A stretch of DNA of 52,971 nt from Bacteriovorax sp. Seq25_V (GTDB lineage: Bacteria; Bdellovibrionota; Bacteriovoracia; Bacteriovoracales; Bacteriovoracaceae): the NCBI RefSeq assembly GCF_000447795.1, contig NZ_AUNI01000004.1:1-52971 (forward strand), read 5' to 3'. The translations under genes were made by a program, and so were the position numbers. The notes under the pieces were generated by a model that ran no database searches, had not been told where the DNA came from, and worked only from the letters and a program-made list of their open reading frames with translations. The first letter of the stretch is position 1, and the number at the start of each line of letters is the position of its first letter. Of this stretch, positions 14,746 to 39,888 are shown piece after piece.

Positions 14746-16332
14746 TTATCCAACTAATTCTTCGTTCAACTCATCAATTCCAACAAGTGGAAGCATCAAG
14801 CGAAATTCCAGTAAAGTATCTCCATTTATCTTAAAGTCGAGGGTCCCACCAAGATTATTGGCCATCGTCTGAAAAGTTTTAAAAGTTGTGCTATTTGCTC
14901 GATGTTCGCCAAAGAGAGATAGATAATTAAAACCTTGCTTATTTTTTAAGTTATCTTGCTTTTCAAAGTAAATATCGACGAGAATATATTGCTCTTCGTA
15001 TAGTTTGGTATCAGTCGCAGTTAACGCAAGCACTCCTTCGTTTTTATAAATACTCAAACTCTCAATAGCATACTTAATTATGTCTCTGACTTTAGGCTGA
15101 TCCAGATATATATGAGTCGGTATTGATGGGGCGATCTGTGTAAAGACTTTTTTATCAAGTTTAAGTTCACTTACAATAGAGTTCACACACCCACTGAGAA
15201 ATTCATTTACATCCGTGTTCATATACTTCCCTTCATAATTTGTACTAGCCTCTTCACTCGTACTTATTACAGAAGCATTACGAATTAAATCTTTTAGGTG
15301 GAGATATTCACTCTCTGCTAGTTCAACTAGCTTGAGATTCTCCTTACTGAGATTATCCTCATGAACTCGATGAAGAGTACGATTTAAAACTTCCATTGGC
15401 ACATTTAATTCTTTATCAATTTGAGCAAATAGTTGTTTCCTATGTTCTGAATAATCTATAAACTTTGCCCTATCATCTCTCAGCTGTTGCTCCTTAGACA
15501 ATACTCTCGTAGAAAAGCTCTTCATACTAGTAATGATTTCCTGCAACTCTGCGGGATAAGCCCATGAGTCTTCAACAAAGTTTTCATGAGATAAGAGAGA
15601 GTCTGTATGGCGAGCAATTTTATGTAAAGGAATTATTAAGGAAAAAAGAGTATACAAGAGTAGACTCAAAACCACGCCCACACTAACAGTTGTCATCACA
15701 AAATTACTGCTATATAAGTCATTGAAGCCATCAGCAACAACCTCTTGGATATTCTTTTCAATCGCGCGAACTTCTTCACGGTAAGTTTGACTTACTTTTT
15801 TTATAGACTCTGATGCACGAGCTAACTCATTTACTGCTTTATCAACTTCAGTAGCTCCAAGATTACCAGTCTTTACTAATGAGCTAGCATTTTCAATGGT
15901 ATTATTGAGATAAATTGCTTCATTGTGGTATAATTCAATTGATAGAAATTTTAGAAGATATTCTGATTTTGCTTCAAGAAGATATTTTTTTATTTCATTA
16001 TATTCACTAATAGATGCATCAATATTCTTCTTCATTGTTTTATTGCTATTTTCAAAACTAACTAAAAAATCACTTAACCTCAGGTTCTTTGCTTTGAAGC
16101 GCTCTATATCATTTATCATATTCTCTACAGACTGCTGCAACTGGCCCTGAATTTGTGCAACAAAATAAATATGCTCAGTTAGTTTTGCCCCCTGGTTTGA
16201 GATTTCCATTAAAGATAACTTCTTTGCTTCTAGTCTCTTATTCTCGAAATAGAATAAACTTGAAAAGACGACGCAAAAAATAATGAATAAACCAATGTAG
16301 TTTTGTAAAAAGTTAGGTCTTTTATTTCCCAT
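14746..16332 (-). CDS. Degenerate sensor histidine kinase (likely pseudokinase)
   Basis: 528 residues. TM1 (about 11-28), a long helical periplasmic sensor region, TM2 (about 211-234), a HAMP-like linker, then a dimerisation helix LFAQIDKELNVPMEVLNRTL (301-320) that aligns with the usual 'vSHELRTPLn' motif, but Lys307 stands where the phospho-accepting His should be. The ATPase part (about 375-520) lacks the N-box asparagines (VRDIIKYAIESLSIY) and a recognisable DxGxG or GxGLGL box. The frame is intact, so this looks like a maintained non-catalytic sensor rather than a decayed gene. AGGAATT precedes the ATG. A response regulator is not adjacent. Confidence 0.75.
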   Translation of the reverse strand: MGNKRPNFLQNYIGLFIIFCVVFSSLFYFENKRLEAKKLSLMEISNQGAKLTEHIYFVAQIQGQLQQSVENMINDIERFKAKNLRLSDFLVSFENSNKTMKKNIDASISEYNEIKKYLLEAKSEYLLKFLSIELYHNEAIYLNNTIENASSLVKTGNLGATEVDKAVNELARASESIKKVSQTYREEVRAIEKNIQEVVADGFNDLYSSNFVMTTVSVGVVLSLLLYTLFSLIIPLHKIARHTDSLLSHENFVEDSWAYPAELQEIITSMKSFSTRVLSKEQQLRDDRAKFIDYSEHRKQLFAQIDKELNVPMEVLNRTLHRVHEDNLSKENLKLVELAESEYLHLKDLIRNASVISTSEEASTNYEGKYMNTDVNEFLSGCVNSIVSELKLDKKVFTQIAPSIPTHIYLDQPKVRDIIKYAIESLSIYKNEGVLALTATDTKLYEEQYILVDIYFEKQDNLKNKQGFNYLSLFGEHRANSTTFKTFQTMANNLGGTLDFKINGDTLLEFRLMLPLVGIDELNEELVG

Positions 16333-16473: not shown

Positions 16474-16950
16474 CTAGTCCTTAGATTGGCAGGATTTTAA
16501 TAAATAGATATTTTCTGGATATTGGTATACACCAGCACAACCGTAGGCTTTCTGACTATCTTTTGTGGTATAAAGTGAAAAGTAGTACTTATCCTTAATG
16601 ACCTGCACCTTACCTGTTTGAGTACTTTTTGCTTTTATCTCAACTGTTGCAACGTAGGCTTCAACATCTTTATCAACAACATTTACTTCAAGAACTTTGA
16701 CATCCTTCATCGAGTCCACAATGAAATTAGGATTTGATTCTAACTCATTTGAAGCATCGAACACAACAAGAGCATGTGGAAATTTATTTTGAGCAAGACA
16801 CTTACTTCCATTGTTTCCATCAATACGTGCACCAGATAAATCAACTTCAACGACGTCAAGAGCTTTTTCTTGAAGCGACTTACTACTCGGACACTCAAGC
16901 GCGAATGTATTAAACATAAATAACATACTTAGAAATGCACTAAACTTCAC
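16474..16950 (-). CDS. Secreted protein of unknown function
   Basis: 158 residues with a signal peptide (MKFSAFLSMLFMFNTFALEC). Four Cys remain in the mature part, two near the N-terminus and two near the end (YGCAGVYQYP, LLKSCQS). The start is GTG at 16950 with AAGGAA upstream. It overlaps the 3' end of the lipoprotein gene by 11 bases and is therefore coupled to it. No family recognised. Confidence 0.65.
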   Translation of the reverse strand: MKFSAFLSMLFMFNTFALECPSSKSLQEKALDVVEVDLSGARIDGNNGSKCLAQNKFPHALVVFDASNELESNPNFIVDSMKDVKVLEVNVVDKDVEAYVATVEIKAKSTQTGKVQVIKDKYYFSLYTTKDSQKAYGCAGVYQYPENIYLLKSCQSKD

Positions 16951-18277
16951 GAGTATTCCTTTGATTTATAATTTCTGTCCCTGTCGCTTTATCGTAACAG
17001 CCGTTAATACAATCTTCACCTTTTAGCTTAATTCTCTTATCAGAAATACACTCAGGATCAGATGTTCGATGTCTAATGATATCAAACTTTGGTGATAAAG
17101 TTAACTTCTTACTATCAACCTCTGTCTGAGTTCCTTTTACTATTTTTTGACACATTTTCACTGCAGACAATCTAAGGTTATTAAACATTGTTCCACCATT
17201 ATGCTTTGAGATATGTACTCTTGATGGACCATAGCCATTATTTATAGAACCACTATGAATATATGTGAAATTGAAATCACTAATTTTAATACCTTTACAG
17301 TTATTAGCTTTTGCGTATTTTTTAATTGCAAGTGGATCATTCCCAATCTCATCAACCATCACAATATGATTTCCAGATACATTAATCATATCTCCAGCTT
17401 GAATTGTATTGTTCGCATCAAATTTTGCCGTATCAAGACAGCTTTTTTTACTGTGAAGAGTTTGATTAAAGTTTGTTGTCGTAAGACTTGAAAAAGGTCC
17501 GGAGTCTGTTTGGACTTTAAGACCCTGAGAAGCTAATGCAACAGAGATAAAACTTGAACAGTCTATTCCCGCCGCAGGTTTTGAAGAACTACTCACCCCT
17601 TCCCCTTTAGTAAAAAGATTAAGCTCCCCACTTCTATTTGGTGCCTTACGTGAACCATAACCATATACAGGAGGCTTAAGTCTTGCATCAGTACACTGAG
17701 GTCCAGGATAATTTGGATCTTCTCCAAGATCTTTAAGTACAATATGTGAACTTATATAGGCCTTAGTATCAGTAATATTTCTTATGCGAGGACCGGCTGC
17801 ACTCTTAGGAGCACGAATTCCTCGTAAAGACGGGGTATTGACGTCGATAATTTTATCGATTGCTGAACAACTTTGAAACATAGTTGCAAGAACTTTTCTC
17901 GCCCCACGAACTGCAGGATTAGCTAGTCTCTTTACACCATTACTATCTTCATAAAAGTCCCCACACCCAATACTTGGGGAGGATAAGCTTCGATCGATAA
18001 AGCCAGTAAGTTCGTCTGAGCTTGGAAAAGTTGTAAAATTATCAGTAAGTTTTCTAGCATCAGCTTCCCATGCTTTCTCTTCTTCTGACTTATAATCTTC
18101 ACCCTCTTCGATTGAGTTGTCTGCGTAGGGATCTGTGATTTCTTCTTTTTGTACGACTTGCTTTTTCTTAGCTTTGACTAGAGTCTCAGCCTGATTTTGC
18201 ATATTATTTTGCGTGGCCACACAGCTGGCAAAAAATATGAGAAGTAAAAACTTTGAGTTAATTTTAAAAAATTTCAA
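16940..18277 (-). CDS. NlpC/P60-like cysteine hydrolase, lipoprotein
   Basis: About 445 residues. The start MKFFKINSKFLLLIFFASC uses TTG at 18277, 9 bases after GGAG; a GTG at 18292 would add five residues. The lipobox FFASC predicts lipid attachment. After an acidic linker, the catalytic part shows AAGIDCSSFISVALASQG (nucleophile Cys), a GDMINVSGNHIVMVDEI strand with the catalytic His, and then a Cys-rich tail. NlpC/P60 enzymes cut peptidoglycan stem peptides, which in a predator could act on its own or prey wall. It is coupled to the small secreted protein downstream. Confidence 0.75.
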   Translation of the reverse strand: MKFFKINSKFLLLIFFASCVATQNNMQNQAETLVKAKKKQVVQKEEITDPYADNSIEEGEDYKSEEEKAWEADARKLTDNFTTFPSSDELTGFIDRSLSSPSIGCGDFYEDSNGVKRLANPAVRGARKVLATMFQSCSAIDKIIDVNTPSLRGIRAPKSAAGPRIRNITDTKAYISSHIVLKDLGEDPNYPGPQCTDARLKPPVYGYGSRKAPNRSGELNLFTKGEGVSSSSKPAAGIDCSSFISVALASQGLKVQTDSGPFSSLTTTNFNQTLHSKKSCLDTAKFDANNTIQAGDMINVSGNHIVMVDEIGNDPLAIKKYAKANNCKGIKISDFNFTYIHSGSINNGYGPSRVHISKHNGGTMFNNLRLSAVKMCQKIVKGTQTEVDSKKLTLSPKFDIIRHRTSDPECISDKRIKLKGEDCINGCYDKATGTEIINQRNTREV

Positions 18278-18484
18278 TTTTAGGTTCTCCACTGACTTCT
18301 CTACTCAACTTCTTATCGGACAAGTTCCTTAAAATATTAGTATATTCAATGAGGCTACTATTCCAGAGAGAAACTATTAACCGACCAACAATCTAAATTA
18401 AATCAAATACATATGCAGAGCAGTCATCCTTTGGAGATGCCAATTTTTACTGTCTATTTTCAATATTTTATATAGAATAGAAGT

Positions 18485-36915: not shown

Positions 36916-39888
36916 TTAATTATTCAGCATGCGACGAGATTCCTCATTTCTTATTAACTTCATAGAGTTAGCTTTAGAAATAATAGAATACTGAGTCCCC
37001 GAGTTGTCTTCGATAACCTCAAGCTTTCCATCTGCTATTTGTTTAACAATTCTAAGTTTAGCCTTATCATTACTTTCCATAAACTTATTGAATGCTTCAA
37101 TATAATCTGGTGATAAATCTTTATCTGAAACGTCTACTGCATTTGCAAAATGTACAGAAACATCATTCTCTAATTCAACTCCATCTTTATTAATAAGTTG
37201 AAATAAGTTAGTTACCGCAACAGTTTCGTAATCATTTTTTGGCTTATCATCTTTGCTACCAACTTTTAAATTAGCTTCAATCGATTCGTTATCCTGTAAT
37301 TCCTTAAGAACTGCAAATGCTGGTGAATTCTCATCTTCAAATTGTCCATTGACAACAGGATTACCTTGGCGTGCAGTTGGAATAACTCCAACAGATGAGC
37401 TGTTAACACTACTTGAAATACCTTGAGAGATACTACCAGACGAAGAAACCGACTTTGCCGAAGCTGACGCTCTACTTTGAGTTTTTCGAGTATTTGAAGT
37501 GGTCGCTATACTTTGATTTTGTACACTTTCTACTTCTTGAGATTTACTACTTTCCTTATCATCTAAACTATTGCTTAGTTTTGCAAGCTTCGCTTCTAAC
37601 TCACCCTTCTTCTTTTCAAAGTTTTCCATAACAGTAGTCTTCTTAGTGTTATTTGCTTTACCAAAAAGTTTTTCAAGCTCCGCCTCTGCTGCTTGATTTT
37701 TTTGTGCTGCTGACAGTTTTTGAGAACTATTATTCTCTGACAAACTTCCCTCTTGAGCTACGTACTCTTTTGCAGCTTTAATTTCAGCGACTCTTTGGTC
37801 ATAGACAGAATTTGCTACATCTCTACTAACACCAGACTCTTGTGCAATCCTATCAACCATCTGCTCACGATTTGATTCATTATAAACATTTTCAAGAGCA
37901 GCAGCTTTCTGGGCCATCTCCTGAACTGAGTTGGCGCCTAAAATCTCTTTTGCTTGCTTCAGAGAACTCACCTCTTTACTCTTCGCTTCAGATTTTTCTC
38001 TCGCACTTCTTCCTTCTTCCCCAAACACATCAACAGCTTTTGAAGCAATTCCCGTTGCGACAGCAGCTTTTCCTAAACTCGCAAGCTTATCTATATTTGT
38101 ATTAGAGTTTTCGTCTTTCTTATGATGAGAAGAATTAGAGCTTCCATTTGTTTGCCCGTCATTTCCTTTATTATGCTGATTTTGGCCACTCTTTCCATGG
38201 TCCAAAGCAAGAGAGTCCTGTTGTTTATTATTTGTTGTCTTCTCTTCTACTCTTTTGGCCTTATCTTCGAATCTTGAATCACGACTTTTAGTATCTCTAG
38301 AACCAACACCCGTAGAGGAACTTGCAACATCTTTAGGCTTATTATTTTGATTTGAGTGTCCAGCAATATGCTGATATTCAGATCTAACCTTTTGAGAAGT
38401 ACGTGTTCCTCTAATCGCTACATTTCGTTTTGTGTGATCATCACGCTTATCAATTACTTGTCTAACTATTCTTCTCTCATCATACTTAGCATCCATAGCT
38501 AAGGCTATTCGAGATCTTCTGGCAACAGCTCCAGATCCAGCGCTAGCTAAAATTCTATTCGATGTGTTTACACCCATTCTCGACATTCTCTTAGACATAC
38601 GAAGAGGATCACTTAAAAAATCCCCAACAGCTAAGGTTGCCTTTACAACTTTTAGCTCTTCTACATGAGCAATAATTTTTTCAGATAATGCCTTACCTTT
38701 TTTTAGTATCTCAGCAGATCTAGCAATTGCTGTAGAAGCAGTACCACCAACATTTTTTACACTTGTTATAATTTTACTTTCAGCTTTAATTGCAGCAACT
38801 GCTGCCGGAGATTTCATCGTTGGAGAAACTTTTTGAATTTTTGTTGCAACTTTTTGTGAAAGCTTTCTCAGTGTATGAGCACCAACTTTTGCACCAATTG
38901 ACACCATATTACCAGCACCAGCGGTAAAGACCATCACCCCAAGCTCTGATGTAATTGCTCCAACGGCAGCACATGTTGCGTTTATCTTATCATTACAGTC
39001 GATACACTCGTAACTAGCAAGCGGAGTCTTACACTCTGACATATGTGGTGTCCCCTCCCATTCCTGGCAGAGAACCGAAGATCTAATCCAAGTGTCGAGA
39101 CTCTTTTTCATATTAGACATCATATCTGCAAAGTATCCAGCAGGATCTTCAGTTAACTTCTTTACATCTTCATCTGTTTTTTCAGACATTGCATGAGCTT
39201 CATCTAACTTACTATCAAACCAACTAGATGGGCTAAAAAGATAGCTTGTTCCAGTTTTTACCACATCCCACACACTAGTCATTGTTGACCAAAAGCTTGA
39301 AAGAAAAGCAGTGGTAACTTCTGTAAGACAGTCACCTTGACCCTTGTCAAGACAATCAGAAGGAAGTTCATCATCTCCTTTCACTTTCTTTGCGAGACCA
39401 TTACTAATTCTCTTACTTACGAATTCAGGCAATAATGTTTCCGCAGCGGCATTTATTGAACGATAACTATTACAGGTCCAGACATTCTCACAGCTGTCCT
39501 GATTCTTTTTTACTTCCTGAGGTGTACACTTCACCTGCGCAGTCGCATCTGCTGCCATAAGCTTCAATTTCTCGATCTCAGACGTTTGAAGAACATCCTC
39601 ACCGGAACATGTCACTTCTCCTAAAAGCGCGTCAGGCATACCTGCATTGTTATCTCCTGAAGCACTTTCCTCTTCAGCATCTTGAACATCATCATTAATT
39701 TCGAGCGCTAGTTTTAAACAGGTATCATCTATTTGTTCAACATAGTTGTCGGGAAGAATTTCTTCACCATTAAAACAACTACTCTCCAAAAGACCTACTT
39801 TTTCATCAAAAGCTAACTCACGAGCATGCGCTTGAGTTAGACATAAGATACATAAGATAAATAACTGTTTTTTAACTAGAGAAAACAT
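36916..39888 (-). CDS. Large secreted protein with cysteine-rich head, disordered middle and folded tail
   Basis: 990 residues, signal peptide (FSLVKKQLFILCILCLTQAHA). Residues about 30-330 hold some sixteen Cys, several as close pairs (CIDCNDKINATC). A hydrophobic patch follows (LGVMVFTAGAGNMVSIGAKV), then a basic region (RMSKRMSRMG). About 490-620 is low-complexity and rich in Ser, Asn, Lys and Asp. About 650-800 is charged and probably coiled-coil. After a Ser-rich linker, a final ~130-residue domain (SPAFAVLKELQDNESIEANL to the end) looks globular. No enzyme motif or family recognised; size and layout resemble secreted effectors or surface proteins. Confidence 0.7.
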   Translation of the reverse strand: MFSLVKKQLFILCILCLTQAHARELAFDEKVGLLESSCFNGEEILPDNYVEQIDDTCLKLALEINDDVQDAEEESASGDNNAGMPDALLGEVTCSGEDVLQTSEIEKLKLMAADATAQVKCTPQEVKKNQDSCENVWTCNSYRSINAAAETLLPEFVSKRISNGLAKKVKGDDELPSDCLDKGQGDCLTEVTTAFLSSFWSTMTSVWDVVKTGTSYLFSPSSWFDSKLDEAHAMSEKTDEDVKKLTEDPAGYFADMMSNMKKSLDTWIRSSVLCQEWEGTPHMSECKTPLASYECIDCNDKINATCAAVGAITSELGVMVFTAGAGNMVSIGAKVGAHTLRKLSQKVATKIQKVSPTMKSPAAVAAIKAESKIITSVKNVGGTASTAIARSAEILKKGKALSEKIIAHVEELKVVKATLAVGDFLSDPLRMSKRMSRMGVNTSNRILASAGSGAVARRSRIALAMDAKYDERRIVRQVIDKRDDHTKRNVAIRGTRTSQKVRSEYQHIAGHSNQNNKPKDVASSSTGVGSRDTKSRDSRFEDKAKRVEEKTTNNKQQDSLALDHGKSGQNQHNKGNDGQTNGSSNSSHHKKDENSNTNIDKLASLGKAAVATGIASKAVDVFGEEGRSAREKSEAKSKEVSSLKQAKEILGANSVQEMAQKAAALENVYNESNREQMVDRIAQESGVSRDVANSVYDQRVAEIKAAKEYVAQEGSLSENNSSQKLSAAQKNQAAEAELEKLFGKANNTKKTTVMENFEKKKGELEAKLAKLSNSLDDKESSKSQEVESVQNQSIATTSNTRKTQSRASASAKSVSSSGSISQGISSSVNSSSVGVIPTARQGNPVVNGQFEDENSPAFAVLKELQDNESIEANLKVGSKDDKPKNDYETVAVTNLFQLINKDGVELENDVSVHFANAVDVSDKDLSPDYIEAFNKFMESNDKAKLRIVKQIADGKLEVIEDNSGTQYSIISKANSMKLIRNEESRRMLNN

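Follow-up and report, generated by a model that had tools for sequence, protein, structure and literature searches.

The natural bacterial pseudo-histidine kinases that we met in a literature search, DivL, RetS and RcsD, each retain some kinase or phosphorelay components. DivL of Caulobacter crescentus is described as having its acceptor His replaced and showing neither kinase nor phosphatase activity, while its core binds a regulator and influences another kinase; it reads DivK~P, without activity even though the other boxes are retained (PMC4211667). RetS of Pseudomonas aeruginosa has a degenerate ATPase domain, does not autophosphorylate and acts by contact with GacS; it is reported to retain an H-box with HExxT, phosphatase activity and receiver domains, one of which is a phosphate sink (PMC5992135). 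The enterobacterial RcsD is portrayed in a preprint as having two membrane segments, a domain in the periplasm and a histidine kinase domain that is inactive, and the RcsC/RcsD structures are read there as speaking against a heterodimer in which an active and an inactive kinase pair 1:1 (PMC13317618). In Corynebacterium glutamicum, the ChrS-CA-fs variant is described as having lost the CA function and working with a paralogous kinase by heterodimerizing (PMC9491836).

Here we analyzed a stretch of 52,971 nucleotides from Bacteriovorax sp. Seq25_V (contig NZ_AUNI01000004.1; hereafter the window), which carries a gene resembling each of these in part. As in DivL, the acceptor His is replaced; DivL, however, has the N, G1, F and G2 boxes and PAS, whereas the window family has lost these boxes and has a periplasmic sensor, and Pfam gave no PAS match in the window protein, which sets it apart from DivL. 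RetS is the leading PDB match of the family both by profile and by Foldseek, but the window protein has neither HExxT nor a receiver and ends after the CA domain, and thus does not qualify as a RetS. The same early end distinguishes it from RcsD, which bears ABL and Hpt, and its natural conservation distinguishes it from ChrS-CA-fs, a laboratory-evolved frameshift. The family is therefore without the boxes or the motif kept by DivL and RetS, and has no receiver or Hpt. By analogy, a mechanism of the DivL/RetS type, namely binding to another kinase or to a response regulator, is most likely. A genus-restricted family that lacks the phosphatase motif and the N/G boxes in all members seen, and in three of five also the acceptor His, yet remains under selection, with an H-box broken differently in two clades, provides a natural case for what a kinase core does after losing its chemistry, here in predatory bacteria of the Bacteriovorax group. 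A literature search on Bacteriovorax/Halobacteriovorax returned no title or abstract start about their histidine kinases.

A kinase-like core without its catalytic residues

The open reading frame starts with ATG and contains no internal stop (Table 1). The first-pass annotation had described two membrane segments, a long sensor domain and a HAMP-like linker kept over 528 codons, and hydropathy, predicted helices and Pfam HAMP matches in the orthologs agree with this description, so that the family has the parts of a HAMP-domain transmembrane sensor. The HAMP match passes the Pfam cut-off of 25 bits only in the G004 ortholog (32.1 bits); it is slightly under it in G001 (22.0 bits), weak in G002 (12.6) and missing in G005. 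The TM2-HAMP stretch also drew many matches across the order when the sensor profile was searched against 129 genomes.

Table 1 Features of the pseudo-histidine kinase gene (window positions).
Feature	Position	Strand	Basis
Pseudo-histidine kinase gene, 528 aa	14746..16332	-	Open frame; orthologs in 5/6 genus genomes
First membrane segment, residues ~9-28	16249..16308	-	Kyte-Doolittle peaks
Periplasmic sensor domain, residues 33-208, predicted all-helical	15709..16236	-	Predicted helices; 9/176 residues invariant
Second membrane segment, residues ~211-233	15634..15702	-	Kyte-Doolittle peak
HAMP linker, residues 235-288	15469..15630	-	Pfam HAMP in orthologs; 6/54 residues invariant
Degenerate DHp (HisKA) hairpin, residues 289-362	15247..15468	-	hhalign; predicted helices 295-325 and 330-354; 7/74 invariant
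Lys307 codon, phospho-acceptor position	15412..15414	-	Alignments
His321 codon, invariant in five orthologs, acceptor +14 residues	15370..15372	-	Five-ortholog alignment
Degenerate CA (HATPase_c) domain, residues 363-528, without N, G1 and G2 boxes	14749..15246	-	Alignment; fold match to CA domains; 3/166 invariant
Ser425 codon, N-box Asn position	15058..15060	-	Alignments

The DHp/CA core of the window protein is CATALYTICALLY dead by sequence. The H-box region (residues 304-313) reads Q-I-D306-K307-E308-L309-N310-V311-P312-M313, which includes the D-K-E-L-N-V-P-M previously pointed out in the dimerization helix, and in the hhalign profile-profile alignment with seven canonical kinases K307 occupies the column of the phospho-accepting His. 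The absence of the N and G boxes was likewise seen correctly: Ser425 and Tyr421 stand at the canonical N-box Asn and Glu, respectively, and G1 (DxGxG) and G2 (GxGLG) are missing from all five orthologs, as is the N-box Asn, which is replaced by S (G000, the window genome), A (G001), T (G004), V (G005) or V (G002). At the acceptor position, the residues in the same order are K, N, K, H and H, and the canonical relative in genome G015 has H. The H-box keeps its Glu and has lost its His in G000, G001 and G004, with the Pro also retained in G000 and G001, whereas in G005 and G002 (LNHFLK-G/N-HI) the His is retained and Glu+1 and Pro+5 are gone; the H-box has thus been damaged in two different ways. 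The phosphatase motif HExxT/N is missing from all five (KELNV, NEVQK, KEVKK, HFLKG and HFLKN in G000, G001, G004, G005 and G002). The simplest history would be one in which the common ancestor already lacked ATP binding, with separate erosion of the H-box in two lineages afterwards. A highly divergent yet active kinase that uses non-standard residues would suit the CA fold, predicted intact, and Gly496 and Pro515, invariant in the five orthologs near the CA end, but is highly improbable given that the acceptor His is missing in three of five and the N-box Asn and both G boxes in all.

The kinship to histidine kinases emerges from the relatives. The window protein alone had no match to Pfam HisKA, HATPase_c or HAMP at E ≤ 1, and its identity as a histidine kinase therefore rests on the orthologs. 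In the four orthologs scanned, HisKA and HATPase_c stayed under the Pfam cut-off, with weak matches in G001 and G004 only. When a profile built from the C-terminal half of each of the five orthologs was aligned with the seven canonical kinases (hand-picked: L051, L052 and five of the 52 HATPase_c matches in G000), the probability was 98.4% and E 9e-15 over DHp and CA. In a PDB profile search with a four-ortholog profile, the leading matches were RetS (E 6e-7 to 9e-7), GacS (1.4e-6) and ZraS (1.3e-5), and the earliest match beyond histidine kinases and HAMP-bearing receptors came at E 0.13; the entries 7n0e and 7z8n appear there as 'Histidine kinase', and their specific names were taken from the Foldseek listing. 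Among the NCBIfam models, two sensor-kinase models matched the G001 ortholog (E 3e-15 and 3.5e-13), both under the curated cut-offs, and no kinase model matched the window protein or the G002 ortholog at E ≤ 1. The HMM search proposed by the first-pass annotation thus came out split, negative for the window protein alone and positive for the ortholog profiles.

The structure prediction proposed there revealed no other fold; the model resembles histidine kinases. We used a three-sequence prediction of moderate confidence (mean pLDDT 61.9; CA blocks mostly 65-82, dropping to 40-58 around residues 461-480, and 53-56 in the DHp for residues 301-350) and set aside a single-sequence one (mean pLDDT 51.8). 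In the model, the sensor is built of long helices, the DHp forms a hairpin, and strands and helices follow one another as in a CA domain. The best PDB match in Foldseek was the RetS kinase region (E 1.9e-9), with an rmsd of 8.8 and a TM-score of 0.53 by target length, indicating that the domains are not placed alike. VIA-align 2 superposed residues 370-518 on the NtrB CA domain (Z 15.4, rmsd 2.4, 126 aligned) and residues 364-516 on DivL (Z 14.9, rmsd 2.8, 137 aligned). The fold of the ATP-binding domain is thus kept in the prediction despite the lost boxes, and profiles and model together show that the family is a HisKA/HATPase_c sensor histidine kinase by descent. The VIA-align 2 rows for the sensor domain (six at Z 15.5-18.2, one at 14.9) were designed or unrelated helical bundles and were set aside, as they indicate only a predicted helical bundle.

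Orthologs, selection and neighboring genes

Five of the six genus genomes examined have an ortholog (G000, G001, G002, G004 and G005). The one in G002 was missed by a one-sequence search and found by the profile search, which detected none in G003. The locus is syntenic, with aspartoacylase-like and FMN-reductase genes nearby in all five (names outside the window were assigned by eye): the sensor gene adjoins the FMN reductase in G001 and G004, one FemAB-like gene lies between them in G002 and G005, and a FemAB-like and a GST-like gene in the window. In G003, an NlpC/P60-like lipoprotein gene and a small-protein gene directly abut the FMN reductase with no sensor between. The G003 FMN reductase is nearer to those of G001/G004 (61.7% identity) than to those of G002 (53.6%) and G005 (52.4%), which makes a secondary loss of the sensor gene likely, although not proven, since it is only 49.7% identical to that of G000.

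When the sensor profile was searched against the 129 genomes of the order, eight places matched over the greater part of it: the five orthologs, one kinase each from G015 and G059, both of which had been built into the profile, and another kinase of G059 (L052; E 3.9e-16). The other matches were partial, the longest covering 87-248 of 286 in G093, and most were confined to TM2 and HAMP; outside the genus, G015 and G059 were the only genomes in which most of the sensor was matched. A further search, of 368 genomes across the phylum (E ≤ 1e-20, up to three candidates scored per genome), found matches in eight: the five orthologs, G015, G059 and G016 (a 791-codon frame). Among 145 candidate stretches from viral contigs, there were no further relatives. 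Among the genomes searched, the pseudokinase was found only in this genus.

The nearest canonical relatives found are a hybrid kinase in G015 and its counterpart in G059 (L050, truncated where the contig ends), which share the sensor-HAMP-DHp layout and have their H-box His and N box, plus a receiver in G015. The G015 kinase (L051:5005-7041, 678 aa) has HATPase_c and a receiver above the cut-off and HisKA at 26.8 against 26.9 bits; its residues 6-433 match the G001 ortholog and 8-415 the G004 ortholog (E 2.8e-15 and 1.5e-14). Among the matches listed, no canonical kinase of the genus extends into the first 170 residues of the G015 sensor. The G015 gene has a presumed lon on one side and a porin-like gene on the other, with presumed clpX and clpP genes close by (L051:5005-8574), and the G059 counterpart follows presumed clpP and clpX and a porin-like gene, after which the contig ends. 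A DHp-CA tree that grouped the five pseudokinases (95/99) was set aside, as long branches were flagged.

The frame and the protein are under purifying selection. All five frames are open over 526-541 codons (in the assembly of G005, a few bases within the gene are undetermined), and in the two closest pairs pN is well below a saturated pS (0.29 against 0.75 for G001/G004; 0.26 against 0.79 for G005/G002). The first-pass annotation had suggested a dN/dS comparison, and its description of a non-catalytic sensor with an intact frame is supported; decay in this strain only, beside relatives with an intact His, is not the pattern, since the His is at its site in two orthologs and lost in three, and all five are without the ATP boxes.

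The protein diverges quickly, at 15-23% identity between the main lineages against 48-59% for the neighboring FMN reductase in the same genomes, which could also mean relaxed constraint. The divergence, the absence of the gene from G003 and the eroded catalytic motifs could be read as a decaying kinase on its way out; that five frames stay open at saturated synonymous divergence, that pN is so far under pS and that invariant residues exceed those of shuffled columns makes this scarcely credible. Across the five orthologs, 7 of 74 residues are invariant in the DHp, 6 of 54 in HAMP, 9 of 176 in the sensor and 3 of 166 in the CA domain (Fisher p against CA, in a small comparison: 0.011, 0.008 and 0.14 for DHp, HAMP and sensor, respectively). 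Shuffling columns within domains gave mean invariants of 0.19 (DHp), 0.11 (HAMP), 0.36 (sensor) and 0.23 (CA), a loose control because the alignment itself favors matches. In the seven canonical kinases, the CA domain is about as conserved as the DHp (16 of 163 against 8 of 74 invariant), mostly at the boxes. The relatively weak conservation of the CA domain in the window family suggests that HAMP-DHp is what does the work.

The genes beside the sensor vary. The first-pass annotation had proposed partner binding with the adjacent envelope genes, and the order lipoprotein, small protein, sensor on the same strand in G000 and G001 would fit an envelope adaptor working with the NlpC/P60 lipoprotein and the small secreted protein. 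This adjacency is limited to those two of the five sensor-bearing genomes. G002, G004 and G005 keep the sensor with other genes flanking it, and the lipoprotein had no match there at E ≤ 0.001 (assemblies 73-87% complete), while G003 shows the reverse, the pair without the sensor; in G002 and G005, moreover, a gene for an XRE-type regulator adjoins the sensor instead. The proposal is thus not supported by conserved adjacency, and we regard an envelope adaptor as very unlikely. The XRE-type regulator (L049:7609-8352 and L055:8674-9378) is 88% identical between the two genomes, went unmatched at E ≤ 0.001 in the four remaining genus genomes, and could be a clade-specific partner of the pseudokinase.

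As a separate observation, a gene for a small secreted protein comes after the NlpC/P60-like lipoprotein gene in all three lipoprotein-bearing genomes of the genus (window 16474-18292, L053:8123-9881 and L059:6892-8644), the likeness of the small proteins being judged by eye; the window lipoprotein is slightly under the Pfam NlpC/P60 cut-off (19 against 23 bits).

Candidate mode of action

The gene encodes a membrane-anchored pseudo-histidine kinase that, we consider, probably acts by non-covalent docking to another kinase or to a response regulator, partner binding being presumably the best remaining mechanism for a dead sensor. The periplasmic helical domain would receive a signal, which would be relayed through TM2 and the HAMP linker to the DHp-CA core. 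Lacking the residues for ATP binding and autophosphorylation and the HExxT/N motif, the core would perform no chemistry and would act by contact, either docking to or heterodimerizing with an active histidine kinase, or docking a response regulator, with the conserved HAMP-DHp part as the putative contact surface. Dimerization, the docking role and a partner encoded elsewhere are the parts of this explanation that we infer. With a 1:1 RcsC-RcsD heterodimer disputed in the RcsD preprint, docking between homodimers is, by analogy, as possible as heterodimerization. Findings that count against non-covalent docking include the absence of the gene from G003, which makes it dispensable in one species, its fast divergence, the modest structure model and the lack of NCBIfam kinase matches for the window protein and the G002 ortholog; phosphotransfer also stays formally conceivable in G002 and G005 because the acceptor-site His is kept.

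His321, 14 residues past the lost acceptor, is invariant in all five orthologs and replaced by Asn in canonical G015 and by Gly in G059 (the latter read by eye). In the second DHp helix, A339-E340-x-E342 is also invariant. We take His321 and A339-E340-x-E342 to lie in the part of the hairpin with which canonical kinases dock their response regulator, as reportedly seen in the HK853-RR468 work. Docking is the modest reading of this conservation, and a relocated acceptor the bold one.

On a broader form of the bold reading, a partner kinase would phosphorylate the protein in trans, on the H-box His of G002 and G005 or on the invariant His at +14. In canonical DHp domains, position +14 is a regulator docking site and not an acceptor site. 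The H-box His is present in only two of the five orthologs, and there it comes without the following Glu and the H-box Pro; HExxT/N is lost from all five. The H-box His of G002 and G005 still lends the idea some ground, as do the invariance of His321 in all five orthologs, its absence from the canonical G015 and G059 kinases, and the RcsD kinase-like domain, for which a non-conserved His has been put forward as acceptor (PMC3762810). We judge phosphotransfer in trans unlikely. That a partner kinase phosphorylates His321 itself in trans, two heptads down the same DHp helix, or that this residue is a binding site for a ligand or metal, is a long shot; if true, the family would consist of membrane sensors whose reactive His has moved and whose CA domain is dead.

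For the docking that we favor, the partner is probably encoded elsewhere than in the window, since the Pfam tables of 46 of its 56 ORFs (at least 120 aa) contain no other histidine kinase or receiver family; the other ten ORFs start at 1952, 2017, 2931, 10335, 19154, 21532, 46212, 49477, 49514 and 51451, and for one scanned ATPase the tables comprise the best 25 of 40 families. The G000 genome has 36 HisKA matches. Elsewhere in the window, a 990-codon ORF (36916-39888) had no Pfam match at E ≤ 0.01. One promoter-like site, which matches 11 of 12 consensus positions, lies antisense within the pseudokinase gene at 15905-15934; over the whole region scanned, the 20 such sites are no excess over the 17 expected.
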